A stretch of 10,407 nucleotides of DNA, taken from Patescibacteria group bacterium (lineage in GTDB: Bacteria > Patescibacteriota > Minisyncoccia > UBA9983). Below the pieces are notes generated by a model. That model saw only the letters and a program-made list of their open reading frames with translations, ran no database searches and was not told where the DNA came from. The number at the start of each line of letters is the position of its first letter. Position 1 is the stretch's first letter. Positions 1 to 10,407 of this stretch are shown here, piece by piece. The position numbers were made by a program, and so were the translations under genes. The stretch is from contig JAHJXC010000080.1 in NCBI GenBank assembly GCA_018827845.1, forward strand, positions 1 to 10,407. Reading direction: 5' to 3'.

Positions 1-1719
1 AGCAACAAAGTAAAAGTTGAGAATGATAATGAGGCGGTTGTGGAAAATAATATTAATACAAACGCTGGCACTGGCAATAATGAAACGAATAATAACGGAA
101 CTTCAGCAATTCAGACTGGCAATGCTTTTTCCAGCGCCAATGTAATCAATCGGGTTAATACAAATATTTTCAATGATAATTCATTTTTGGTTTTGGTGCG
201 CGTGCATGGTAATTGGTCTGGCAACATTTTTGGCCTACCTCAAGGCATTTTCTGGAGAGAAGATGGAGGCGGCATAGAGCTTTTCAGCTCGGGAAGCGAT
301 TCTACAACGCCTTCAATGGCCATAGATAATCAAAATTCTGCTGAAATAAACAATAATATTCAGGTTATGGCTTTAACAGGAGAGAATAAGGTGGATGATA
401 ACGGAGGCGATGCCATTATTAACACTGGCAGCGCTTATGCCGGCGCTAATGTTTTGAATGTGGCTAATACAAATGTAATTGGCGGAAACTGGCTTTTGGC
501 AATGATAAATATTTTCGGCGACTGGGAGGGTAATATAGCTTTTGGAAGGCCGGATCTCTGGGTTGGAGGCAGGGCAGAGGCGCATGGAACGTCAGTCGGC
601 CCTGGATCCGGAGTTTCTTATCATTTTACTATAGTGAACAGAGGGGATGCTGACGCTACTGGTGTGAGATTAAGCAGTTTATTTGATAATGATTATATGG
701 CATTCCTTGATTTTGATAATGAATGGGATATCGGAAATATTCCGGCAGGCAATTCAGTTGAGGTCACTTATGAGGCAAAAGTAAAAGACAATATTCCTGT
801 CGGGCATACAACTATTAATAATACAGTTACTGTTGCCAGTATGGAGACAGATGAAGATACAAAAGATAATATTGATGTTATAACATTGCTGGCCTATAAA
901 GAAAATCCGGCTCCTCCAACTCCTCTAGGGCTTCAGATTCCGTATACGCCAACTCCTGTCTTAAAAATTACTAAGACAAATAATGCTGAAGGGCCGTTAA
1001 CTGCAAGCAGTACAGTTGATTATAAAATCGTGCTCACAAATGACGGAGGATCATCTTATCATTCAGTGCTTACAGATGTTATTAAAGACAAGAATGGCGA
1101 TGTTATCCACAAAGAGAGCTGGGATTTGGATGAGATTTTTCCTCATGAAGAAATTACAATTACTTATACTGTTGTCTTTAATGCAAGCACTACTCCCGGA
1201 ACATATACAAATTATGCGCAGGTTAATGCTATCGGACGCTATCCTACTTTGGATTACGGATGGTTTGCAGATTCAAATATAGCCACCAGTTTAATTGAAA
1301 TAATGGGACCAGAGCCAGAAGTTGCTCTTTCCGAAGGAATAGAAGAAATAAAAGGAGGAGGAGGAATTTCTCTGTCTGAAGCAAGAGACGCATTGAATGA
1401 AATAGAGAATAATGTCCAAAAAATAAAAGAGGCAATTTCAAGATTAATGCCCGGAAAATTATTTGCTTCTGCGTCTGACTCAATTCCTCTGGTGAGCGCC
1501 TCAACCCCGGAACCAGAAGAAAATAAAATTATCCCTCCAATTATCTCTCCGGAAAAAACCCCGGACAAAAGAATAAATATTTTGAAAGACTGGCCTTCAA
1601 GACTGGCCGGCGCCGTTGGCTTGAGCGATATAAATCCTTATTATCTCGCGGTAATAATATTCATTTTGCTCCTGGGGATATCTATTATTGCCATAAAGAA
1701 AAGGGGGAGTAAAATATAA
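1..1719 (+). CDS. Partial repetitive surface protein with DUF11-like domains and C-terminal membrane anchor
   Basis: The frame is open from base 1, so the true start lies left of the window; the GTG at 40 is only the first internal start-like codon. Residues below count from that GTG. Two Asn/Thr/Gly-rich repeats of about 50 clearly similar residues (about 21-69 and 124-172) share the pattern TGxAxxxANVxNxxNTN followed by GxWxGNI. Two DUF11/CARDB-like beta domains follow (about 175-285 and 305-400), each built around an 'xxNxGxxxxxxVxLxD' core. Then come a short helical stretch (445-470), a Pro/Glu/Ser-rich linker (485-512), a hydrophobic segment (about 534-553) and a Lys/Arg-rich tail. I infer an exported protein held in the membrane by its C-terminus, with the repeats outside. 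No LPXTG signal is visible. It ends 3 bases before the protease gene, so the two are probably cotranscribed. The family is typical of Patescibacteria surface proteins; its exact role (adhesion or surface layer) is unknown. Confidence 0.85.
   Translation, partial: SNKVKVENDNEAVVENNINTNAGTGNNETNNNGTSAIQTGNAFSSANVINRVNTNIFNDNSFLVLVRVHGNWSGNIFGLPQGIFWREDGGGIELFSSGSDSTTPSMAIDNQNSAEINNNIQVMALTGENKVDDNGGDAIINTGSAYAGANVLNVANTNVIGGNWLLAMINIFGDWEGNIAFGRPDLWVGGRAEAHGTSVGPGSGVSYHFTIVNRGDADATGVRLSSLFDNDYMAFLDFDNEWDIGNIPAGNSVEVTYEAKVKDNIPVGHTTINNTVTVASMETDEDTKDNIDVITLLAYKENPAPPTPLGLQIPYTPTPVLKITKTNNAEGPLTASSTVDYKIVLTNDGGSSYHSVLTDVIKDKNGDVIHKESWDLDEIFPHEEITITYTVVFNASTTPGTYTNYAQVNAIGRYPTLDYGWFADSNIATSLIEIMGPEPEVALSEGIEEIKGGGGISLSEARDALNEIENNVQKIKEAISRLMPGKLFASASDSIPLVSASTPEPEENKIIPPIISPEKTPDKRINILKDWPSRLAGAVGLSDINPYYLAVIIFILLLGISIIAIKKRGSKI
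100..555 (+). repeat. Two diverged in-frame protein repeats of the surface gene
   Basis: Two copies spaced 103 codons apart encode matching segments (about bases 100-246 and 409-555). Both read roughly 'I.TG.A...ANV.N..NTN' and then a hydrophobic run ending in 'G.W.GNI..G'. The similarity is clear in protein and weak in DNA, so this is an old duplication. The reading frame before the first copy continues in the same Asn-rich style, so more copies may lie to the left of the window. Confidence 0.7.
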
Positions 1720-1722
1720 AAT

Positions 1723-3804
1723 ATGAATACTCTTAGAAAAATAAGCGTTCTTTTAACATCTTTTGCCATTGTTGGTATGCCCTTTTTTAACTTCGATTTT
1801 ATAGCGCAAAAAGACCCTGTTTTATTTGAAATGAAACTAGATAATTTAAGGGGCAGCAATTCGGATTATTTAAAAGATGAGATTGTTGTGAAGTTCAAAA
1901 ACGAGGAGAGATACCGCCGGATCCGTCTCCCTATAGACGAAACTGTAGAAAGCGCTTTGGAGCGTTACAAGAACCGTTCTGATGTTGCCTATGCTGAGCC
2001 AAATTATATTGCTCATGCCTTTATGGTTCCTAATGATCCTTATTATTCTTATCAGTGGAATTTTGATAATCCTGTTTATGCTGGAATTCATATGCAAAAT
2101 GCCTGGGATATTTCTAATGGGGCAGGCGTGATAGTTGCTGTAATAGATACCGGCGTGGCTTATGAAAATTATTATCAAAGTTTTCGCAACAGATATTATC
2201 TTGCGCCTGATTTAGCCAACACCTCTTTTGTGGCTGGTTATGATTTTGTTAATAATGACAGCCATCCTAATGACGACAATGGCCACGGCACGCATGTTAC
2301 AGGAACCATTGCTCAAAGCACTAATAATAATCTTGGAGTGGCTGGTATTGCTTACCTTGCGAAAATTATGCCAATCAAGGTTTTGAATAATAATGGGAGC
2401 GGAACTTATGCAGATGTTGCTGACGGTATACGCTGGGCTGCTGACCATGGCGCAAAAATTATTAATCTTTCTTTGGGCGGATCTTCTCCGGCCTCATATC
2501 TAGAGGATGCTGTGGCTTATGCTTATAACAAAGGCGTTACTATTGCGGCAGCTTCAGGCAATGATGGCTCTTCTAGCGTTTCTTATCCTGCTGCTTATGA
2601 CAATTACGTTATTGCTGTGGGCGCCACTCGTTATGATGAAACTCGCGCGTCTTATTCTAATTACGGTTCCTCAATTGATTTAGTAGCTCCTGGCGGTGAT
2701 TTAAATGTTGACCAGAATGGGGATGGCTATGGAGATGGTATTCTTCAGCAGACTTTTAGCAGAACCACTAATAATTGGGGATATTATTTTTATCAAGGAA
2801 CTTCAATGGCAGCGCCTCATGTGGCCGGAGTTGCCGCGCTCGTTATTTCAAAGGGCATTGCAATATCGCCTGCTCAAGTTATGGCAGTTCTTGAATCAAC
2901 CGCTGATGATCTTGGCGCATCTGGCAGAGATAATGTTTATGGTTATGGCCTTGTTAATGCAGCATCTGCTTTAAATTGGACAGCCGGGCCAGTTGATAAT
3001 CCACCATCAGTAAGTATTATTTCTCCAGCTGAGGGAGCAGTGGTTTCAGGCACAGTTACCATAACTGCTACAGCATCTGATGATTATGGCGTAACAAAAG
3101 TTGATTTCTATGTTGATGGTGTACTTCTAAGTTCTGATGACGCTAGCCCCTATGAAGCTTCTTGGGACTCAACTAGTATTGCCGATGGACAACATACTCT
3201 TTCTGCTGCTGCAGTTGACACTGCCGGTCAGACAGCCACCGCTTCTATCAAGGTCACCGTGGATAATGTTAACGATCCACCAGTAGCCAATGCCGGCTCC
3301 AATCAATCAGCTTTTGTTGGAGATACGGTTTATTTTGATGGCTCTGGTTCTTCCGATCCTGATGGCACAATCGTTTCTTATGCCTGGAATTTTGGCGATG
3401 GAACAACTGCCAGCGGGGTGACCACCAGCCATATTTATTCAGCAGCTGACACTTATACTGTTACCCTGACCGTGACTGATAATGGCGGTTTAACTGGCTC
3501 TGATACTGCTTTAGTCAGCGTTTCAGAAAAACCAGCAGCGGTAATATGTTGGAGTGGAGGAAATCAGTATCTCTACAGAAACAGCAGTCAGGCAAAAAAA
3601 TTCTGTAAGTGCGCCGAAGGGACCTACGGATATAAGAGTTATAATTATAGCCGAGGAAGACAGACAGTCTATCAATACGTTGATACCGGAGATAACGAAA
3701 ATTGGGATGTAGAATCGAGGAGTTCTTATTCGCCAGTTTCTGAAGTGACCTGTACTGATGGGGTAGTCTACTCAACAAAAAATGATTACTCTTATCCAAA
3801 GTAA
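1723..3804 (+). CDS. Secreted subtilisin-like serine protease (S8) with Ig-like, PKD and Cys-rich C-terminal domains
   Basis: An endopeptidase expected to act outside the cell. Residues 1-28 look like a signal peptide (KR-containing start, hydrophobic 8-27). Residues 50-100 resemble a fervidolysin-type pro-domain (DEIVVKF, AYAEPNY). The S8 catalytic domain spans about 105-420: Asp142 in VIDTG, His188 in NGHGTHV, oxyanion Asn280 in ASGND, and Ser361 in GTSMAAPHVAG, so the triad is complete. A bacterial Ig-like domain follows (about 428-514: PPSVSIISPAEG, FYVDGVL), then a PKD domain (about 518-600: SSDPDG, WNFGDG, YTVTLTVTD). The last 90 residues form a Tyr-rich domain with four Cys (609, 628, 630, 677), suitable for two disulfides. 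No membrane anchor follows, so the product is probably released or held by the C-terminal domain. The ATG at 1723 is supported by GGGGGAG at 1703-1709, with a rather long spacing. Start and family are sound; the substrate is unknown. Confidence 0.95.
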   Translation: MNTLRKISVLLTSFAIVGMPFFNFDFIAQKDPVLFEMKLDNLRGSNSDYLKDEIVVKFKNEERYRRIRLPIDETVESALERYKNRSDVAYAEPNYIAHAFMVPNDPYYSYQWNFDNPVYAGIHMQNAWDISNGAGVIVAVIDTGVAYENYYQSFRNRYYLAPDLANTSFVAGYDFVNNDSHPNDDNGHGTHVTGTIAQSTNNNLGVAGIAYLAKIMPIKVLNNNGSGTYADVADGIRWAADHGAKIINLSLGGSSPASYLEDAVAYAYNKGVTIAAASGNDGSSSVSYPAAYDNYVIAVGATRYDETRASYSNYGSSIDLVAPGGDLNVDQNGDGYGDGILQQTFSRTTNNWGYYFYQGTSMAAPHVAGVAALVISKGIAISPAQVMAVLESTADDLGASGRDNVYGYGLVNAASALNWTAGPVDNPPSVSIISPAEGAVVSGTVTITATASDDYGVTKVDFYVDGVLLSSDDASPYEASWDSTSIADGQHTLSAAAVDTAGQTATASIKVTVDNVNDPPVANAGSNQSAFVGDTVYFDGSGSSDPDGTIVSYAWNFGDGTTASGVTTSHIYSAADTYTVTLTVTDNGGLTGSDTALVSVSEKPAAVICWSGGNQYLYRNSSQAKKFCKCAEGTYGYKSYNYSRGRQTVYQYVDTGDNENWDVESRSSYSPVSEVTCTDGVVYSTKNDYSYPK

Positions 3805-3825
3805 ACCTGCAAAAGATGAGATACA

Positions 3826-3873
3826 TAGGTAATACCCTTGATTTACCTAAAATGGATCATTTTCAACGAAAAT
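3826..3873. repeat. Cluster of small palindromes after the protease gene
   Basis: Three small inverted repeats follow one another: TAGGTAA/TTACCTA (3826-3832 with 3843-3849), AAAATG/CATTTT (3849-3854 with 3858-3863) and ATTTTC/GAAAAT (3859-3864 with 3868-3873). They are AT-rich and weak, and none has a U-run, so they are not convincing terminators. They may be 3' structures of the protease mRNA or chance in AT-rich DNA. Confidence 0.3.
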
Positions 3874-3879
3874 CAGTAT

Positions 3880-3908
3880 AAAAAGCCTCGGTATAAAACC
3901 GAGGCTTT
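3880..3908 (-). terminator. Intrinsic terminator of the HTH/zinc-ribbon gene
   Basis: A perfect 11-bp inverted repeat, AAAGCCTCGGT and ACCGAGGCTTT, encloses a 5-base loop (3893-3897). On the minus strand the stem is followed by five T (3884-3880, the first three lying in the stem base), and it begins 9 bases after that gene's TAA. On the plus strand the stem is followed by GGG rather than a U-run. It should therefore work mainly for the minus-strand gene, with at most partial use for the protease transcript arriving from the other side. Confidence 0.85.
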
Positions 3909-3917
3909 GGGATGGTT

Positions 3918-4655
3918 TTATCGGTAGTCAATCGCCCATTTACTTACTAATTTCCCGCATTTTGGACATCTTAACTTATTATTCTGAAGAGCTGTCCAAA
4001 AATCATAGTTGCACTTTTTACAACTCACTTTCTTTTCTTTCCAAACAATTTTAAGGTTATTTAATTCCAATTGATGCTTCGTCTCTTCGTCCAGTTTTGT
4101 AAGGTCACAGGCCTCGGGTCTCGACTTCAAAAATCTCTTTAAGTCATCCAAGTCAATTAAGGCACAGAAATATTTTGGTTCCTCTATTTTTCTTGCTCCT
4201 TTTCTACTTAAACTATAGGTAAGACTATCTTTGGCATAATCAGTAATTTTTAATCCACGCCCCGGCCATTTCTTAATTGTTTTATAATCAATTTTCAATG
4301 ACTCTGCTAGTTCTACAAAAGTGTATCTTCCCGTATTGCCCCTAAAACTTATTCCCAAATTTCTGGCTACCCGATAAATTGCCGAAGCTGTTCTGCCAAA
4401 CTTTTCAGCAACTTGATGGGTTGGCTTGCCGCCATATTCGGTAAAAAGTTGGGCTTTTATTTCAGGGTCTTGCCAGTTAATAAATGGATATTTAAAAACC
4501 GGTTGCCTTTTCCCCCTCAGATGAGCTGCCTTGCATCTTACTTTATTAACCGTGGTCTTGAGGTGTTCGGCTATTTCTTTAGTAGACAAGGCCCCATAAT
4601 TTTTAATGATATAATCTTCCGCATCTTTTTCCCACTTGGTTTTTTTATTTCTCAT
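3918..4655 (-). CDS. Multi-HTH DNA-binding protein with C-terminal zinc ribbon
   Basis: I recognise the domain style but not a named family. From the ATG at 4655 the protein has 245 residues. Residues 8-46 (WEKDAEDYIIKNYG, STKEIAEHL, VRCKA) form a SANT/Myb- or GcrA-like helix-turn-helix. Residues 61-101 form a second unit of the same plan (TEYGGKPTHQVAEKFGRT, IYRVARNLGI), and residues 112-135 a third, shorter HTH (FVELAESLKIDYKTIKKW). The C-terminus holds a zinc ribbon: C212xxC215 and C230xxC233. There is no membrane segment or signal peptide. A cytoplasmic DNA-binding regulator is likely; a phage- or mobile-element-derived factor is the main alternative. The gene stands alone, opposite to its neighbours, with its own terminator and promoter-like sequence. 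A TTG at 4664 would add three residues, but the Shine-Dalgarno spacing favours the ATG. Confidence 0.8.
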   Translation of the reverse strand: MRNKKTKWEKDAEDYIIKNYGALSTKEIAEHLKTTVNKVRCKAAHLRGKRQPVFKYPFINWQDPEIKAQLFTEYGGKPTHQVAEKFGRTASAIYRVARNLGISFRGNTGRYTFVELAESLKIDYKTIKKWPGRGLKITDYAKDSLTYSLSRKGARKIEEPKYFCALIDLDDLKRFLKSRPEACDLTKLDEETKHQLELNNLKIVWKEKKVSCKKCNYDFWTALQNNKLRCPKCGKLVSKWAIDYR

Positions 4656-4666
4656 CTCAAACAAAT

Positions 4667-4671
4667 CCCCC
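4667..4671 (-). promoter_or_regulatory. Shine-Dalgarno-like GGGGG deciding the HTH gene start
   Basis: On the minus strand AAAGGGGG is followed 11 bases later by the ATG at 4655, but only 2 bases later by the in-frame TTG at 4664. The spacing supports the ATG. Most other genes in the window lack any clear ribosome-binding site, so this G-run stands out. Confidence 0.5.
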
Positions 4672-4705
4672 TTTCTATTTTAGACATTTTAAAGAACTCT
4701 AATTT

Positions 4706-4714
4706 ATTGTATCA
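4706..4714 (-). promoter_or_regulatory. Candidate extended -10 promoter for the HTH gene
   Basis: The minus strand reads TGATACAAT, which is an extended -10 (TGn) plus TACAAT, five of six matches to TATAAT. The matching -35 position falls in a CCCCTT stretch and is poor. Transcription would begin near 4699, giving a leader of about 44 bases that contains the G-run. Confidence 0.4.
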
Positions 4715-4740
4715 TTAAATCAAAATAGAAGGGGCGGATA

Positions 4741-4769
4741 TTGACTAAGGTAATGGACTATGCTAGCAT
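4741..4769 (+). promoter_or_regulatory. Candidate sigma-70-type promoter for the lysozyme-like/hpf/pcm cluster
   Basis: TTGACT (4741-4746) and TAGCAT (4764-4769) are separated by exactly 17 bases, with an extended TG at 4761-4762. Predicted transcription would start near 4776, just before a small hairpin and about 28 bases before the TTG start of the next gene. The -10 matches only four of six positions. No other promoter is visible for these three genes. Confidence 0.45.
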
Positions 4770-4777
4770 CTTAATAT

Positions 4778-4801
4778 AAGCCCAAAAATAAGGGCTTTTT
4801 T
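4778..4801 (+). terminator. Terminator-like hairpin just before the lysozyme-like gene
   Basis: AAGCCC (4778-4783) pairs with GGGCTT (4792-4797) across an 8-base A-rich loop, and T runs from 4796 to 4801. It has the form of a small intrinsic terminator on the plus strand. It lies only 3 bases before the next coding start, and almost on the predicted transcription start of the upstream promoter-like sequence. It may end a tiny upstream transcript, act as an attenuator, or protect the 5' end of the mRNA. Confidence 0.5.
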
Positions 4802-4803
4802 GA

Positions 4804-5265
4804 TTGAATTTTATTAGTATTCTAATCTACAAATCGCTGTCAGCTACGATTGTGGCGGTTGGCCTTGCCTTGGCAGGGCTAATGCCCATTGAGCTGGCAA
4901 AGACACATATTGAGCCAGATGCGATTGAAAGACAGGAAATCACCGTTAAAACTTCTGAAGATCTGATAAGAGAACAGGCTCGCGCAAATAATTTAGACGA
5001 AGAAAAAATAATTTTCATAGCGCGATGCGAGTCGCAGATTGAGCCCGACGCCTTAGGGGACAGTCATTTGATTTGCGCGAAAACCCAAAAGCCTGTGCGC
5101 TCCAGAGGAGTGTGGCAGATTAATAACTGCGCCCATCCTGAAATCAGCGATGAGCAGGCTTTTGATTTGGAATGGTCAACTGACTGGGCCATGGAGATTT
5201 TTAAGAAAGGCGAGGAAACAAAAGAATGGCGGAGGTGCACCAACAGGTATACTATGTTATATTAA
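4804..5265 (+). CDS. Exported lysozyme/SLT-like transglycosylase-domain protein
   Basis: A likely peptidoglycan hydrolase of 153 residues. Residues 5-30 form a signal peptide or N-terminal anchor. The lysozyme-like domain covers about 67-147: catalytic-type Glu76 in ARCESQ, then GD followed by a Cys-containing loop (C91), SRGVWQIN (100-107, matching the G-L-WQI motif of SLT domains), HPEIS, AFDLEWSTDWA and a terminal W-x-x-C (W142-C145). Cys75, 91, 109 and 145 could form disulfides outside the membrane. The start is TTG at 4804, because a TGA stands directly before it in frame; no Shine-Dalgarno is seen. A first downstream ATG would delete the signal peptide. It ends with two consecutive in-frame TAA codons, 4 bases before hpf, so the three plus-strand genes probably form one transcript. 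Remodelling of the cell's own wall is the simplest role; attack on a host or neighbour wall is possible. Confidence 0.8.
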   Translation: MNFISILIYKSLSATIVAVGLALAGLMPIELAKTHIEPDAIERQEITVKTSEDLIREQARANNLDEEKIIFIARCESQIEPDALGDSHLICAKTQKPVRSRGVWQINNCAHPEISDEQAFDLEWSTDWAMEIFKKGEETKEWRRCTNRYTMLY

Positions 5266-5269
5266 TAAC

Positions 5270-5632
5270 ATGAGAGTGAATATTAAGGCGACGAACATGG
5301 CGTTTACCCCGGCGCTGAAAAACTTTGTTGAGCAGAAAATAAGCAATCTGGATAAATTTATAAGCCACCCTGATGGTGGTATTCAGGCATGGGTTGAGAT
5401 TGGTTTGACTACCAAGGGTCAGAAAAGCGGGGATATTTATCGGGCAGAAATCCAGATTCCTGTTCCTCATTTTGACAGGACAGTCCGCGTTGAAGCCAGG
5501 CACACTGATTTATATACTGCCATTGAGAATGCAAAAGATCTGATGAAAATGGAACTGCAAAAAACAAAAGATAAAAAAATTTCTTTGTCCAGGCGCGGGG
5601 CAAGACTTCTCAAAAATATTCTCAAATACTAA
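5270..5632 (+). CDS. hpf: Ribosome hibernation promoting factor, short form
   Basis: This 120-residue protein matches the HPF/RaiA (S30AE) family, which binds the decoding centre of the 30S subunit in resting cells and blocks translation. Visible features are the N-terminal strand MRVNIKATNM, a helix with TPALKNFVEQKISNLDKF, strands with AWVEIGL and IYRAEIQIPV, and the C-terminal helix pattern DLYTAIENAKDLMKMELQKTKDK with a basic tail. It lacks the long C-terminal dimerisation domain, so it is the short type. The ATG at 5270 gives the normal HPF N-terminus; the frame is open further upstream inside the lysozyme-like gene, but that part does not match the family. There is no clear ribosome-binding site, so translation is probably coupled to the upstream gene. 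It ends 1 base before pcm. Confidence 0.92.
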   Translation: MRVNIKATNMAFTPALKNFVEQKISNLDKFISHPDGGIQAWVEIGLTTKGQKSGDIYRAEIQIPVPHFDRTVRVEARHTDLYTAIENAKDLMKMELQKTKDKKISLSRRGARLLKNILKY

Positions 5633-5633
5633 A

Positions 5634-6248
5634 ATGAAACAGATGGTAAAAGATTTAATTAGTTCTGGGTATCTTAAGACGCCCGGTATTATTGAGGCCT
5701 TTCAAAGAATTGACAGAAAGGATTTTGTGCTTGATGAACATAGAGATGAGGCGTACATAAATGCTCCGCTTCCCATTGGCTATGGTCAGACAATTTCCCA
5801 GCCCTTAACCGTGGCTTTTATGCTGGAGCTTCTTCAGCCAGAACCGGGTAATAAAATTTTGGATGTTGGGTCCGGGTCTGGCTGGCAGACTGCTTTATTG
5901 GCAGATATTGCGGGGGAAAGCGGAAAAATCTTTGCTGTTGAGATTATTCCTGAATTAACGGATTTTGGCAGAAGAAATGTTGCAAAATATAATTTTATAA
6001 AAAGCGGAATTGTAAAATTTTTAAATTATAACGCTGTTAAGGGCATGCCAGAACAGGCGCCTTTTGACAGGATTATTGCAGCTGCAGCAGGAGAAGAGAT
6101 TCCTGCGGCATGGAAAGAACAGCTAAAGATTGGAGGGAGATTGGTTGTACCTGTCGGGAATACAATTTTTCTTTTAATCAAAAAAGACGGCGGTGTTTTT
6201 GAAGAGCAATCATATCCCGGCTTTGCCTTTGTGCCGTTTGTGGCCTAA
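5634..6248 (+). CDS. pcm: Protein-L-isoaspartate O-methyltransferase
   Basis: The enzyme transfers methyl from S-adenosylmethionine to L-isoaspartyl residues, starting repair of aged proteins. At 204 residues it has the usual size. Family motifs are in order: GQTISQP (51-57), SAM-binding LDVGSGSGWQTALLA (76-90), the acidic VE at 102-103, FDRIIAAAAGEEIP (144-157), LKIGGRLVVPVG (164-175) and the C-terminal FVPFV. The start ATG lies 1 base after the hpf stop, so translation is very probably coupled; a second ATG at 5643 is possible. Its TAA overlaps the fmt stop on the other strand by 4 bases, with no terminator between them. Pairing with hpf suggests a shared role in survival of resting cells. 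Confidence 0.95.
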   Translation: MKQMVKDLISSGYLKTPGIIEAFQRIDRKDFVLDEHRDEAYINAPLPIGYGQTISQPLTVAFMLELLQPEPGNKILDVGSGSGWQTALLADIAGESGKIFAVEIIPELTDFGRRNVAKYNFIKSGIVKFLNYNAVKGMPEQAPFDRIIAAAAGEEIPAAWKEQLKIGGRLVVPVGNTIFLLIKKDGGVFEEQSYPGFAFVPFVA

Positions 6249-7141
6249 TTTGTTAGTTTTTGAATCTGCGGTTCAAGATCCTTATTGCCTTTCAGGAAAT
6301 CATTGAAGGGCATTTCGTTTTTGCCTTCAGGTTTAATGCGTTTAATAATCAGTTTGCCATTTTTAATTTCTGATTTAGTAATAATAATTCTGATTTTTTT
6401 ATTGTCTTGCCCGCCAAAAGATTTGCATTTAGGCGGGTAAACAAAAAAATAAACGCCAGGCCAAGGCGTAAAAGCGCGAACTTTTCTATCAATAATCTCG
6501 GGTGAATCCCCGGTTTTTATCAATCCATCTTCTTTGGTGATTTTTTTAGTATAAGTTGCTTGACTGTGATCTTGTTCTTGTGGTTTAATTTCTTGTTTTA
6601 TCCATTTAGGCAAGGTTTCAATTAAAAGTTTTGCTCCCAATTCCGCCAGTTTTGCTTCTAGTTCTTTGTAGTAAAGATTTAAGATTTGAGATTTGAAATT
6701 TGAGATTGCAACTATTGGTCCTGCATCAACTTTTTCTGCCATCTTTATTATTGTAACTCCTGTTTTTTCTTCTCCGCTCAGAATGAAAGATTGAATAGGC
6801 GAGGGGCCGCGGAATTTCGGTAAAAGCGAAGGATGGATATTCAGCGCTCCATATTTTGGAATATTTAAAATTTCTTTGGGAATAATTTTTCCGTAATCAG
6901 CAACGATGAATAGAGAATAGAGAATAGAGAGTAGAGAGTAGTCAGTAATGGTTTTAATATTATTTTTTTGCGCCCAGAGTTTTACTGGCGGGGGAGTGAG
7001 AAGCATTTTTCTGCCTCTGGGTTTATCAGGCGTGGTGACAATTAACATCGGGTAAATATCGTTCTTATGAAGATAATCCAGAATCCTGGCCGCAAAATCT
7101 CCAGTGCCAAAGAAAACAAATTTTGTTTTATTGTTTTGCAT
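6245..7141 (-). CDS. fmt: Methionyl-tRNA formyltransferase with repeat-derived inserts
   Basis: The enzyme formylates Met-tRNAfMet with 10-formyl-tetrahydrofolate, allowing normal translation initiation. Residues 7-200 form the formyltransferase domain, with FFGTGDFAARIL near the start and the active-site set Asn101, His103 (NIHPSLLPKFRGPSPIQ) and Asp139 (EKVDAGP). The C-terminal OB-like tRNA-binding domain includes RKVRAFTPWPGVYF (219-232). The length (298) is slightly below the usual 305-315. The segment at 67-78 (DYSLLSILYSLF) replaces the usual helix before VxxYGKIIP, residues 145-156 (AISNFKSQILNL) and residues 235-244 (YPPKCKSFGG) also look foreign, and each coincides with a DNA repeat. 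The start overlaps the end of def by 14 bases, so translation is likely coupled. The active site is intact, so I expect a working enzyme. Confidence 0.93.
   Translation of the reverse strand: MQNNKTKFVFFGTGDFAARILDYLHKNDIYPMLIVTTPDKPRGRKMLLTPPPVKLWAQKNNIKTITDYSLLSILYSLFIVADYGKIIPKEILNIPKYGALNIHPSLLPKFRGPSPIQSFILSGEEKTGVTIIKMAEKVDAGPIVAISNFKSQILNLYYKELEAKLAELGAKLLIETLPKWIKQEIKPQEQDHSQATYTKKITKEDGLIKTGDSPEIIDRKVRAFTPWPGVYFFVYPPKCKSFGGQDNKKIRIIITKSEIKNGKLIIKRIKPEGKNEMPFNDFLKGNKDLEPQIQKLTN
6410..6437. repeat. Hairpin-like insert in fmt
   Basis: CCCGCC (6410-6415) and GGCGGG (6432-6437) enclose 16 bases, within which AAA/TTT can pair further after one mismatch. The stem is GC-rich against an AT-rich background, and encodes PPKCKSFGG in the C-terminal domain of Fmt. 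It may be a small palindromic insertion kept in frame, although a 6-bp GC stem alone is weak evidence. Confidence 0.4.
6674..6708. repeat. Five-copy 7-bp tandem repeat in fmt (second array)
   Basis: Five heptamers in a row: AAGATTT, AAGATTT, GAGATTT, GAAATTT, GAGATTG. On the coding strand this is the AAATCTC-type repeat, and it encodes ISNFKSQILNL (within residues 145-156 of Fmt). Because 7 is not a multiple of 3, gain or loss of one copy shifts the reading frame. Confidence 0.75.
6908..6942. repeat. Five-copy 7-bp tandem repeat in fmt (first array)
   Basis: Five heptamers in a row: GAATAGA three times, then GAGTAGA and GAGTAGT. On the coding strand it reads as TACTCTC/TATTCTC units and encodes DYSLLSILYSLF (residues 67-78). 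The array occupies the place where Fmt proteins normally have a helix ahead of the conserved YGKIIP segment, so it seems to have replaced original sequence rather than only lengthened it. Confidence 0.85.
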
Positions 7142-7625
7142 ATTTTTCTAAACGAATCGCTTTGTCAACGAATAATACGCCATCCAGGTGGTCCATTTCA
7201 TGCTGGATGATTTGGCTGAGTAGGCCGGAAACGCCACGGGTGAATTTTTTACCATTTTCATCATAGGCCTTTATGGTAAGTTTTTCTGATCGTTTGATAG
7301 TCCCATAGATTCCTTCTACGCTTAAACATCCTTCATGAACAACTAGTTTCTTTTTGGAAATTTTTTTAATAACAGGATTGATAAAAACCATTGGTGGCCG
7401 CAAAGGACCCTCCTTTGTAGAATGCAAAGGAGGGTCCTTTGCGATAAAAATCCTTACAGATTCTCCGATTTGCGGAGCAGCTAGAGCCACGCCATCCTTG
7501 CTTTGCGATAGCGCTTTTTTCATCAGCGTAATAATATTCTTGATCTTCTTGCTTCTAATTTCTTCCAACAGCACTTCTTGGGCTTTTTGCCTTAAAACTT
7601 TATTTTCTTTCTGTACTATTGCCAT
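7128..7625 (-). CDS. def: Peptide deformylase with palindrome-encoded loop
   Basis: A metalloenzyme that removes the formyl group from the N-terminal Met of new proteins at the ribosome. All three family motifs are present in 165 residues: GVALAAPQIG (45-54), EGCLS (98-102, metal ligand Cys100) and QHEMDH (141-146, ligands His142 and His146, catalytic Glu143). I chose the ATG at 7625, which gives the standard N-terminus; the frame extends upstream to 7736, but that part lies within priA. It begins 7 bases after the priA stop and ends 14 bases inside fmt, giving a priA-def-fmt operon. Residues 61-76 (IAKDPPLHSTKEGPLR) are longer than the usual short loop between the first motif and the INP strand, and are encoded by a perfect inverted repeat. 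The loop is away from the metal site, so activity is probably kept. Confidence 0.95.
   Translation of the reverse strand: MAIVQKENKVLRQKAQEVLLEEIRSKKIKNIITLMKKALSQSKDGVALAAPQIGESVRIFIAKDPPLHSTKEGPLRPPMVFINPVIKKISKKKLVVHEGCLSVEGIYGTIKRSEKLTIKAYDENGKKFTRGVSGLLSQIIQHEMDHLDGVLFVDKAIRLEKYAKQ
7399..7443. repeat. Perfect 19-bp inverted repeat inside def
   Basis: CGCAAAGGACCCTCCTTTG (7399-7417) and its exact reverse complement (7425-7443) enclose the 7-base spacer TAGAATG. The element is 45 bases, exactly 15 codons. Each arm is itself a palindrome, CAAAGGA-N3-TCCTTTG, so the unit occurs twice. It can fold as one long hairpin or two short ones. No Rho-independent U-run follows, and it lies inside an intact coding frame, so it is not a terminator. 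It resembles an in-frame palindromic element of the kind known from Rickettsia (RPE). Confidence 0.9.
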
Positions 7626-7632
7626 TTTTTTA

Positions 7633-9498
7633 TTATAGCAAAGATTCTGGATCAACGTTGATTTTCCAGTCCGGGGTGAGAGAGGAGAGGATATCGCGCA
7701 ATTCTTTATGCTGCTGAGGCCAGGTTTCAGGGTCAAGTTTAATAATGATATGCCAGATATGCTGGTTTTTTATTTTAGGAATAAAGGCTGAATAGGCAAG
7801 TGGTTCCCATTTTTCCAATTTTTTCGTCAAAACTTGAACCTCTCTTTTTATTGCCTCTTTATTTCTGCCTTCTTTGGTGATTTTGATAAAAGTTTTAAAT
7901 GGCGGATATTGGAAATGTTTTTTTGCTTCCAGTTCAGATTTGTAAAAACTGGAAACATTTCCTTTTACAACATCATCAAAAATTTTATGGTTTGCCAGGC
8001 GGGTTTGTATTAAAAAAGTCTTTTTGGCCAATGATCTTAATCTTAAGAGAATCTGGAAAATTTTTTCATTAATCCTAAAATCAGGAAGGGTGAAAAGAGC
8101 GTCTATAAAAACCACGGCTGTTTTCTCCACTGGTTTATTAATATAAGAAAAAATCATCTCTGTTCCTATAAGAATAGCGCCCGGGGTATTGAAAAATTTT
8201 TCAACAACTTGATCGCCGGATTTTTTTGTTTTTATTATATCACTGTCCATTCTGAACAGTTTTGCATTGGGGAATTTTTTTAAAATTTCCTCTGCCACTT
8301 TCTGGATTCCCACTCCTAAACTTTGCAGGTGCCAGCTCTGGCAATATGGGCATTGGTCAGGCACTATTGTTTCCGTAAGGCATTTATGGCATATCAGCTT
8401 GACCTTTCTGCTCGCAGGGTCTTTATGGATAACAAGGGGTGAATCGCATTTTTCGCAGAGAATCGGCCGCAGACAATCATTGCAGACAGTGATGGATGTA
8501 TAGCCGCGCCTGTTTATAAAAAGAATTATATGTTCATTTTTTTCAATCGCCTCTTTTAATATTTTTTCGAGCTCCAGACTTATAATTTGGAATTGGTTTT
8601 TTTTCATATCAACCAAAATTTGATCGGCCCCTGACAGAATTCTGTGCGAATTTGTCAGCCTGTTTCTATAAAAAGTTTCAGTTCTAATAATATTGTCTCC
8701 TAAAATAAGCCGCATCTTTAGTTTTGAGGCAATAATTTCCGCTGCCTTTCTTATATCCAGATACGGCCTTGCCTGAAGTTTATAAAAAGATGAGCCCTCG
8801 CGTTCAATAATCAAAGTGCCCAAATCATTTCTGGGAATAGATAAAAATGATCTTGTGGCAATTATTAAAAGAGGATGTTCTTCTTTCAGGACATAATTCC
8901 ATAACTCTCTGATTTTTTTGCCCGGCATCCCGGCATGGAGGGTTACGGTATATTTTTCAATGCCTTTTTTAATATCTGAAGATAGCATTTCGATGTCAAC
9001 AGCAGTGGGGACGCAGAAAAAAACAGAGTGGTTTTTGGCAAATTCTTCCCGGATGATGCTTTTGTAAGACTGGAGCCGGTCTTCTCTTGGCTGCTGGAAT
9101 AAAATAATCTCATAATGCCGGCGCTCAGTCCCGGGTGCTTCAGCGTAACTGCCAACAAAAGAATTGTTTCCCAAAACAGCTTGAGGCACAAAATCTTTTA
9201 TCACTGCTCCCAAAGGAGAAATAAAATAATCGGCTATTTCTCTGCATGCTTCTATGAATTCTGGTTTGAGAAAATTTTTTGATCCGATATCCTTTATAGC
9301 TTTTAAAGAAAATTCTAGCTTGCGTATGTCTGTTTTTATTTTTTTTATATCCTGAGAAGAAATTACCAGAGCCGGCACTGTTTTTTGGCGCACCGGAATC
9401 ATCACCAAGGTGCCTGGTTCAATATTTTTTGAAGTGAAATAAGAAAGTTCCTGTCGAAAGACCCCTTTTGTAATTGGGATAACGGTTGCCAGTTTCAT
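7633..9498 (-). CDS. priA: PriA-like primosomal protein N' with degenerate helicase motifs
   Basis: PriA recognises stalled forks and reloads the replisome. This 621-residue homologue keeps the N-terminal DNA-binding region (about 1-110) and the full zinc module with eight Cys (339, 342, 348, 351, 370, 373, 383, 386). It also keeps helicase-fold landmarks: LHAGMPGKKIRELW (188-200), ATRSFLSIP (214-222), GVGIQKVAEEILKKFPNAKLFRMDSD (395-420), ILIGTEMI (442-449) and LPDFR (471-475). The motor residues look lost. The Walker A GSGKT region reads QPREDRLQSYK (136-146), DEEH reads EREG (232-235), and the GRAGR arginine motif reads LRSLAKK (487-493). I infer a structural or DNA-binding role without ATP-driven unwinding. 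It begins 3 bases after the PEGA gene stop and ends 7 bases before def. No ribosome-binding site is seen at its ATG. Confidence 0.9.
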   Translation of the reverse strand: MKLATVIPITKGVFRQELSYFTSKNIEPGTLVMIPVRQKTVPALVISSQDIKKIKTDIRKLEFSLKAIKDIGSKNFLKPEFIEACREIADYFISPLGAVIKDFVPQAVLGNNSFVGSYAEAPGTERRHYEIILFQQPREDRLQSYKSIIREEFAKNHSVFFCVPTAVDIEMLSSDIKKGIEKYTVTLHAGMPGKKIRELWNYVLKEEHPLLIIATRSFLSIPRNDLGTLIIEREGSSFYKLQARPYLDIRKAAEIIASKLKMRLILGDNIIRTETFYRNRLTNSHRILSGADQILVDMKKNQFQIISLELEKILKEAIEKNEHIILFINRRGYTSITVCNDCLRPILCEKCDSPLVIHKDPASRKVKLICHKCLTETIVPDQCPYCQSWHLQSLGVGIQKVAEEILKKFPNAKLFRMDSDIIKTKKSGDQVVEKFFNTPGAILIGTEMIFSYINKPVEKTAVVFIDALFTLPDFRINEKIFQILLRLRSLAKKTFLIQTRLANHKIFDDVVKGNVSSFYKSELEAKKHFQYPPFKTFIKITKEGRNKEAIKREVQVLTKKLEKWEPLAYSAFIPKIKNQHIWHIIIKLDPETWPQQHKELRDILSSLTPDWKINVDPESLL

Positions 9499-9501
9499 TT
9501 T

Positions 9502-10305
9502 TTATTCAAGTTTTATTTCCATTAGAGTTTTTTCATCCAGGATATAAATTGAGGAATCATTTTTATATATTGTGAATATCGGCTCCTTTCCTTTATAAAT
9601 AGGCTGGAGCATTCTTCCGCCACTGTCGTCTATTTCAATAGCGAAAACGCCGTTCTGCACTGCCACAATAATGACATCGCGCCGGCCAGGGAGAAAGTCA
9701 GCGCTTCTGACAGGATATATGGAATCAAGCACTAAAACATTGTTTTTGCTCATATAGTATGGACGGCTGGATTCATCTTTTAGCCATTCAACCCAAACCT
9801 TATTTTCTTTCGGATTCCACCAGAGTCTTTGCCTGTCATGATTGGTAAATTTTTCTGTTATCGTTGAAGTTGCAGAAAGAGAAGCAAGGATTTCGTCGTA
9901 CTTTGAAACTTCTAAAGGAGAAAGGTCTTCCCGATGTAAAACTTTGCCTTCAGGGTCAAGCGGAAGAAGAAGGGCGCGCGCTTCTGACACCATTTGCTCT
10001 TTTATTTCAATCTCTTTTTTCCACGGCCAGCGGCCTTCTTTGGCAATTAGGATAGAATATGTTCCCGGTTTGAGATTTTGAAGAAAAAGTCCGGTTTGAA
10101 GAATATTAGTGGTTCTTTTTAGCTGGTTGTTTACAAAAATTTGGGATCCGGAAATGGGTGAGGAAACATAGAGACCGCCGGTTTTGGTCAGATGAAAACG
10201 GGAGTCCAAGCGGTAGCCGTTGGAATACATTAAAACCATTGGCATTATCACCAAAAATACCAGAATGCATAAAACCAATATAATCCTTCTTTTCCTTAAG
10301 GTCAT
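9502..10305 (-). CDS. Membrane-anchored PEGA-domain protein
   Basis: A 267-residue protein from the ATG at 10305. A basic N-terminus (RKRR) precedes one membrane segment (about 8-27), leaving the rest probably outside. Residues 43-112 form a PEGA domain, with GGLYVSSPISGSQIFVN, TGLFLQNLKPGTYSI and a paired Trp segment (EGRWPWKKEIEI). PEGA domains are surface modules linked to carbohydrate or S-layer contacts. The remainder (160-267) has short beta repeats (RLWWNPKENKVWVEW, RRDVIIVAVQNGVFAIEI, SSIYILDEKTLMEI) like blades of a partial beta-propeller. The frame remains open to the right edge, but that upstream part crosses a terminator and lacks the basic/hydrophobic start, so I rejected the longer form. 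It is the first gene of the operon with priA, def and fmt. The exact function is unknown. Confidence 0.85.
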   Translation of the reverse strand: MTLRKRRIILVLCILVFLVIMPMVLMYSNGYRLDSRFHLTKTGGLYVSSPISGSQIFVNNQLKRTTNILQTGLFLQNLKPGTYSILIAKEGRWPWKKEIEIKEQMVSEARALLLPLDPEGKVLHREDLSPLEVSKYDEILASLSATSTITEKFTNHDRQRLWWNPKENKVWVEWLKDESSRPYYMSKNNVLVLDSIYPVRSADFLPGRRDVIIVAVQNGVFAIEIDDSGGRMLQPIYKGKEPIFTIYKNDSSIYILDEKTLMEIKLE

Positions 10306-10353
10306 TACTATATATATTTGCAAAAATTTGAAGAAAAGTAAAGAAAAGAAAAA
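10306..10353 (-). promoter_or_regulatory. AT-rich promoter region of the PEGA-priA-def-fmt operon
   Basis: The only space for a promoter between the terminator and the ATG at 10305 is these 48 bases. The minus strand has TATATATAG a few bases before the ATG, which could be a -10 element for a leaderless or nearly leaderless mRNA. No good -35 and no Shine-Dalgarno are visible. Confidence 0.35.
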
Positions 10354-10374
10354 GGCCGGTGATTGCTCACCGGC
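10344..10374 (-). terminator. Intrinsic terminator of the gene at the right edge
   Basis: GCCGGTGA (10355-10362) pairs perfectly with TCACCGGC (10367-10374) around a 4-base loop. On the minus strand the stem is followed by C, then TTTTT, C and TTTT. The plus-strand side has no U-run. It separates the operon of the PEGA gene from whatever lies to the right. Confidence 0.85.
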
Positions 10375-10381
10375 ATTGCAT

Positions 10382-10407
10382 TTATTGTTTTTTGGGAAGT
10401 TCAAGAA
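10382..10407 (-). CDS. Possible 3' end of a further minus-strand gene
   Basis: One minus-strand frame enters from the right edge, reads LELPKKQ and stops with TAA at 10384-10382, only 7 bases before the terminator stem. The position of the stop relative to the terminator is the sole evidence; seven codons allow no functional call. Confidence 0.35.

Follow-up and report, generated by a model that had tools for sequence, protein, structure and literature searches.

Tiny palindromes, such as the Rickettsia palindromic elements (RPEs), manage to insert into essential genes without disrupting them; how they do so, and what mobilises them, is an open problem. The question is raised again by the peptide deformylase gene (def) in a 10,407-nucleotide stretch of a Patescibacteria group bacterium (assembly GCA_018827845.1, contig JAHJXC010000080.1, positions 1 to 10,407; the window), which carries a hairpin-forming palindrome in frame. 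Our analysis indicates that this palindrome is most probably a non-autonomous element of the REPIN type, a doublet of repetitive extragenic palindromic (REP) units, that was moved by a RAYT (an HUH/Y1 transposase; Pfam Y1_Tnp) and survives where it adds a tolerated loop. Genomes (G), contigs (C), loci (L) and database proteins (P) are named by our own handles.

A double palindrome in the def reading frame

A first-pass annotation, made from the letters of the window alone, had reported a perfect 19-bp inverted repeat with a 7-nt spacer, 45 bases in total, in frame in an otherwise canonical def, each arm being itself a CAAAGGA-N3-TCCTTTG palindrome. We confirmed both points (Table 1). The arms were 100% complementary over 19 nt, and the short palindrome was exact in each. 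These were the sole two matches in the window at ≤3 mismatches; two matches at 3 mismatches are not unusual by chance (52 of 200 shuffles), however both def matches are exact. The chance expectation of a perfect 19-bp inverted repeat with a spacer of 0-12 nt was ~1e-6 in the window and 6e-5 across the whole 559-kb genome. As single-stranded DNA the element folded into one hairpin (−24.1/−23.3 kcal/mol, z ~ −12; equalled by 0 of 200 shuffles), formed as in a REPIN by two inverted palindromic units. The element occupies codons 61-76 of 165, and its sequence is free of stops in two of the three + strand frames and in all three − strand frames.

Table 1. Features of the def locus (positions in the window)
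Feature	Position	Strand	Basis
def, peptide deformylase coding sequence (165 aa + stop)	7128..7625	-	PF01327, 149.6 bits; translation
REP doublet (REPIN-like element), perfect 19+7+19 inverted repeat = residues 61-76 IAKDPPLHSTKEGPLR	7399..7443	.	
First REP-like unit, 19 nt; CAAAGGA-CCC-TCCTTTG at 7401-7417	7399..7417	.	
7-nt spacer = hairpin loop	7418..7424	.	
Second REP-like unit, inverted, 19 nt; CAAAGGA-GGG-TCCTTTG at 7425-7441	7425..7443	.	

A 15-bp perfect inverted repeat (GGTTTTTATCAATCC, window 6512-6526 / 7375-7389) is also common to fmt and def, 848 nt apart, and is probably a chance occurrence in coding sequence.

We modelled the protein with AlphaFold2 from an alignment of 47 Def sequences (mean pLDDT 90, pTM 0.86). 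In the model the insert joined strands 60-63 and 80-90, with pLDDT <50 at residues 68-73, in agreement with the loop that the first-pass annotation had proposed; the loop is probably floppy. Most of the 120 Def homologues listed also lacked the insert, a point that the annotation had proposed to check in close relatives. Most of these proteins have unrelated, often lysine-rich loops, and 8 of the 10 family Def loops inspected had no hairpin; the loop is therefore permissive. The perfect arms had been taken as a possible sign of recent insertion. This was ruled out in its strong form, because P0001 (98% identical, cluster of 4) and P0002 (90%) share the insert, which is thus at least as old as their split from the Def of the window.

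We observed that the same loop holds other repeats in relatives. The Def of the sister genome G001 carried a different doublet at this site, ACCGACCCGTAGGGTCGGT-3 nt-ACCGACCCTACGGGTCGGT, unrelated to that of the window. Both of its 19-mers were identical to palindromes at C53 6459, 6485 and 7237, around a RAYT gene (stop-to-stop open reading frame (ORF) 6471-7223), and the motif ACCGAC-N7-GTCGGT occurred 25 times in G001 (control 0). In the Def tree, built from the first 70 of the 120 listed proteins plus the window and G001, P0003 (82% identical) was sister to the clade of the window (support 0.989) and had AVSPPLGGETA in the loop instead. Type-A peptides in P0005, P0009 and P0011 fell on separate branches. 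The same label proved false for P0050 and P0055, which have KEPP in a different loop and were not counted. The P proteins are known from peptide alone, so the three repeat types of this loop comprise two seen in DNA and one seen as peptide. Tolerance may explain why one loop is used repeatedly, or REPs may serve as targets for other REPs. On contig C76 of G001 (L413 6446-6487), a 20+2+20 double palindrome lies in frame in a polynucleotide-phosphorylase-like gene and codes for DLAVSPPLGGETAKF, of the P0003 Def-loop type.

Dispersal through related genomes

Further copies, which the first-pass annotation had proposed to look for, were present as one single palindrome in polA of the same genome and as more in relatives. 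The genome of the window (558,660 bases, 95 contigs, 94.9% complete) held, at ≤1 mismatch, the def element and one single copy on contig C30; with three single units at two loci (control 0), repetition at home was weak. The C30 copy lay in the polA reading frame, downstream of the portion for the 5'-3' exonuclease, and encodes IAKDPPLQ. G001 had a full 22+3+22 doublet at the same polA site, in which the base that differs from the C30 copy is changed in both arms; the single copy fits decay of a doublet. This site held a doublet with another core in G008 and a double palindrome of different sequence in G006, and the remaining family PolA linkers seen were variable and free of such repeats. G001 also holds a single copy in rpiB. 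A glycosyltransferase gene on contig C80 of the genome of the window (L374 4058-5224) contains a second type of nested palindrome in frame (GGAGGTT..AACCTCC, one mismatch; repeat 4578-4611).

We searched 383 genomes of the class for doublets of the pattern AAGGANNNTCCTT-N3-20-AAGGANNNTCCTT, with the reversed pattern as control. Sixteen genomes contained 45 doublets, and the control gave zero in each genome. The family of the window, in which the palindrome has the consensus ~GCRAAGGA-N3-TCCTTYGC, accounted for 15 doublets of ~33-48 bp. Fourteen of these lay in frame in recognisable genes (9 of 9 in G004), and the G003 copy was intergenic. Hosts were assigned by Pfam for 13 (Def, G008 PolA, PilB-like T2SSE, Fe-S protein, PriA, RecG, NiFe hydrogenase twice, MreC, HolA, O-antigen ligase, UvrD and TIM) and by 73% identity to G008 PolA for the G001 PolA. 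The doublets were read in different frames in different genes. In alignments to homologues of solved structure, the residues added to RpiB (G001, 9 residues) and UvrD (G004, 3+8) fell in gaps, and gaps covered part of the TIM insert of G006 (6 or 3); a trigger factor insert fell between two separately aligned parts and was uninformative. Units of RAAGGANNNTCCTTY were in excess in G004 (24 vs 1 for the reversed control) and across the 11 family genomes (46 vs 13), with G009 not above control (4 vs 3).

An unbiased inverted-repeat scan of contig samples (arms ≥14, spacer ≤20, ≤1 mismatch, GC ≥0.3) found 2 repeats in G000 (153 kb sampled), 16 in G004 (307 kb) and 13 in G001 (138 kb), compared to 0 in each block-shuffled control. 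Of these repeats, 1, 13 and 7, respectively, lay in ORFs of ≥100 codons, which were partly profiled. The scan returned several sequence types, and the element of the window is therefore one of many families. A scan of genome contigs matched 64 stretches, many from Patescibacteria and others from Firmicutes, Chloroflexi and further groups. Two of them (L123 and L152) coincide with loci already described for G004 and G001; the rest we treat as a lead only. A GCAAAGGANNNTCCTTTG scan of viral contigs matched 85 stretches, which were not used further. One Berkelbacteria metagenome-assembled genome (MAG) carried five doublets of the AAAGGAC[AT]GTCCTT type on a single contig (CAIRFN010000005.1; L126, L143, L148, L160). 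A Chloroflexi MAG (VGOB; L132, L161, L163, L171, L174, L183) had a recurring 48-bp AAAGGATGCTCCTT...AAGGATACTCCTTT element with similar flanks, which looks like another family of REPs or of miniature inverted-repeat transposable elements (MITEs).

In most family doublets the arms match each other yet vary between elements (exceptions: G006 contig C26 and G003). At two shared sites, the hydrogenase gene of G004 and G006 and polA, the arms match although the cores differ, which suggests the arm-to-arm correction that the first-pass annotation had raised; independent insertion explains this as well. Matching arms would also result from template-switch (quasipalindrome) mutation, in which one arm is copied from the other in place at replication and no mobile element is involved, and some perfect inverted repeats do overlie seemingly ordinary conserved residues, for example in an RNase HII-like ORF of G004. 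We consider this origin improbable for the def element, because the same 17-19-mers recur at unrelated loci of one genome and beside RAYT genes, and template switching alone does not disperse sequence. The G004 case (contig C12, L386 203-239) is a perfect 17-bp inverted repeat over a conserved-looking start with no obvious extra residues, in an ORF named by its motif and not by a Pfam call; it may represent template-switch palindromisation rather than insertion.

A hairpin kept for action at the RNA level, through translation pausing, mRNA stability or terminator-like control, seems no more probable. The hairpin in def is strong, and REPs elsewhere are said to affect mRNA stability and termination (PMC6006769; here and below, published systems are compared as described in the passages cited). 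However, the hairpin is missing from the same 8 of 10 family loops, most of the 120 listed homologues, seen as proteins only, have unrelated loops, and the genes that hold the elements are unrelated in function. A signal for DNA uptake or other recognition, disseminated through natural competence, which short repeated palindromes tolerating coding positions bring to mind, is very unlikely, as uptake signals are numerous and uniform, whereas the 559-kb genome holds just three single units and the core varies from genome to genome.

RAYT genes as candidate mobilisers

The reading as RAYT-moved REP doublets draws support from where RAYT genes and palindromes lie. Y1_Tnp genes were present in 10 of 11 family genomes, with 8 in the genome of the window. 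A RAYT was found in 11 of 12 doublet-bearing genomes in one set, as well as in G000, G001, G004 and G006. The position of palindromes at RAYT genes is stronger evidence than their presence. G001, G004 and G006 each had one RAYT with three single palindromes at conserved spacing: one before the gene, one near the gene end and one in frame within it, at an internal site common to all three. The internal palindrome lay ahead of the NHFH motif; G001 and G006 also had a palindrome near the C-terminus. In G101, G213, G214, G217 and G330, RAYTs had such palindromes within ~470 bp of the domain match. RAYTs containing or adjoining palindromes thus occurred in no fewer than 8 of the 16 genomes with doublets; this count is a minimum, as it covers part of the RAYT loci. 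Two more RAYT genes in G001 (C83 14376-15187 and C23 2874-3621) have ACCGAC-type palindromes on both sides.

We observed a repeated palindrome at 21 of 50 RAYT loci compared to 4 of 141 control windows, and of these four, L414 and L415 contained RAYT loci themselves; this test left out 12 further fetched loci, duplicates aside. RAYT-borne and dispersed cores agreed more within than between genomes (7 genomes), as 6 of 5040 permutations reached the observed value, the number that merely swap three genomes sharing one identical core. A REP-coded peptide motif at the internal site of the RAYT was present in 53 of the 120 homologues listed among 4152.

Several observations weigh against this reading. 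RAYTs occur in 54 of 93 class genomes in any case, and their presence is therefore weak evidence. Palindrome-bearing RAYTs were not seen at the loci inspected in G000, G003, G008, G022 and G139, at the one locus inspected in G243, or at the 4 of 10 loci inspected in G301, and G107 had no RAYT over threshold. Among the 8 Y1_Tnp genes of the genome of the window, none fell in the clade of palindrome-bearing family RAYTs and none bore the def palindrome. They were rejected as the cognate RAYT, so the mobiliser is absent from this genome or lies in the missing 5% of the assembly. RAYT and dispersed cores agreed poorly in G004 (1 of 21) and G330 (0 of 5). The 5' GT[AG]G or CGTC tags of the GTAG and CGTC REP superfamilies did not mark the palindromes (of 74 flanks of 14 nt, GTAG was in 3, GTGG in 2 and CGTC in 0). 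Transposition, an empty-site allele and target duplication were not observed. Outside the family, just 8 of the 25 doublets examined, from 30 remaining, were in frame in Pfam-recognised genes (amidase, trigger factor, class I tRNA synthetase, phosphoglucose isomerase, prepilin peptidase, TsaD, peptidase U32 and SMC). The other 17 lay between genes, in short or unprofiled ORFs, or at the 5' end of an ORF, as in rpiB of G107 and a RAYT of G217.

We nevertheless favour a REPIN-type element. A RAYT would recognise the single-stranded hairpin and copy or move the element. Landing in frame in a permissive loop or linker would add ~15 residues, because the doublet is mostly free of stops. Insertions that break a protein would be lost, so that the copies remaining in def, polA and other core genes are in frame, in loops and linkers where the insert may be neutral. 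Different RAYT/REP families would have entered the same Def loop independently, and the cognate RAYT may since have been lost from the genome of the window.

A further-reaching possibility, which we regard as tentative, is that REP doublets of several RAYT families persist in this family chiefly as coding sequence and repeatedly colonise the same small set of loops in core enzymes, the Def loop taking on the sequence of whatever REP family is active at the time, while arm-to-arm correction keeps its two halves matched. If so, the Def loop would not be inherited as ordinary protein sequence and would be a recurrent source of new protein sequence. Overall, our data suggest that small mobile repeats are able to remodel core proteins at sites that tolerate change, and that, in reduced genomes, a variable loop can consist of mobile-element sequence and not of adapted structure. 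In-frame palindromes and REP-bearing transposase genes coexist in related genomes, the Def loop is reused, and single and double states are comparable at one polA site; mobility, target choice and neutrality are therefore testable.

Elsewhere in the window, positions 1723-3804 encode a large subtilase with Big_7 and PKD domains.

Comparison with known palindromic systems

The first-pass annotation had proposed a selfish palindrome family like that of Rickettsia. Its in-frame family in a Patescibacteria lineage stood; the closest kind proved to be the REPIN with its RAYT. The RPEs share the habit of in-frame insertion in unrelated genes (PMC10969869). Descent from an RPE or another MITE is nonetheless highly improbable, because that source gives RPEs a length of ~150 bp and a conserved peptide ORF, compared to 45 bp and varying frames here, a contrast that rests on description and not on sequence comparison. 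RPE-4 and RPE-6, intragenic in R. conorii, have themselves been classed as REPs (PMC3733652).

Our literature search returned no paper on palindromic elements in Patescibacteria, on repetitive extragenic palindromic sequences in the candidate phyla radiation, or joining deformylase, palindromic insertion, transposase and candidate phyla, and none on RAYT in Parcubacteria, where the sole text match was an author name. Among the 20 papers listed of 411 matched by a broader search, none contained a RAYT term.

The definition of REPINs is based on extragenic doublets (Bertels and Rainey 2011, PMC3116915). As in the elements described there, two inverted short palindromes make one hairpin, single copies also occur, RAYT genes of related genomes are flanked by the same palindromes, and a genome can hold several families. 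In contrast, the doublets of the family here are mostly intragenic and in frame, consist of near-perfect symmetric palindromes and have no GTAG tag; they are also shorter than the REP spacings of 71 and 110 bp given there, and a cognate RAYT was not found in the genome of the window.

Intragenic GTAG/CGTC REPs were reported in 2013 as singles and dimers in ORFs, including DNA polymerase I and UvrD/REP helicase, with different REPs at about the same site in recB of two Xanthomonas (PMC3733652); the elements here differ in having no GTAG/CGTC tag and in placing three repeat types in one Def loop. Frame-keeping REPs inside tnpAREP genes of subclass 2.4 were reported in 2018 (PMC6006769). In-frame REPs within a transposase gene are thus a shared feature, in contrast to the position of the internal REP, upstream of the NHFH motif here. 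We file the present elements as a REPIN variant and not as plain members, because they lack two usual marks, the extragenic position and the GTAG-type tag, and no RAYT for them was found in the genome of the window. Intragenic REPs, including those in polA, uvrD and RAYT genes, are already published; what is distinctive here is the Patescibacteria host, the untagged nested palindromes, and one Def loop that holds different repeats.
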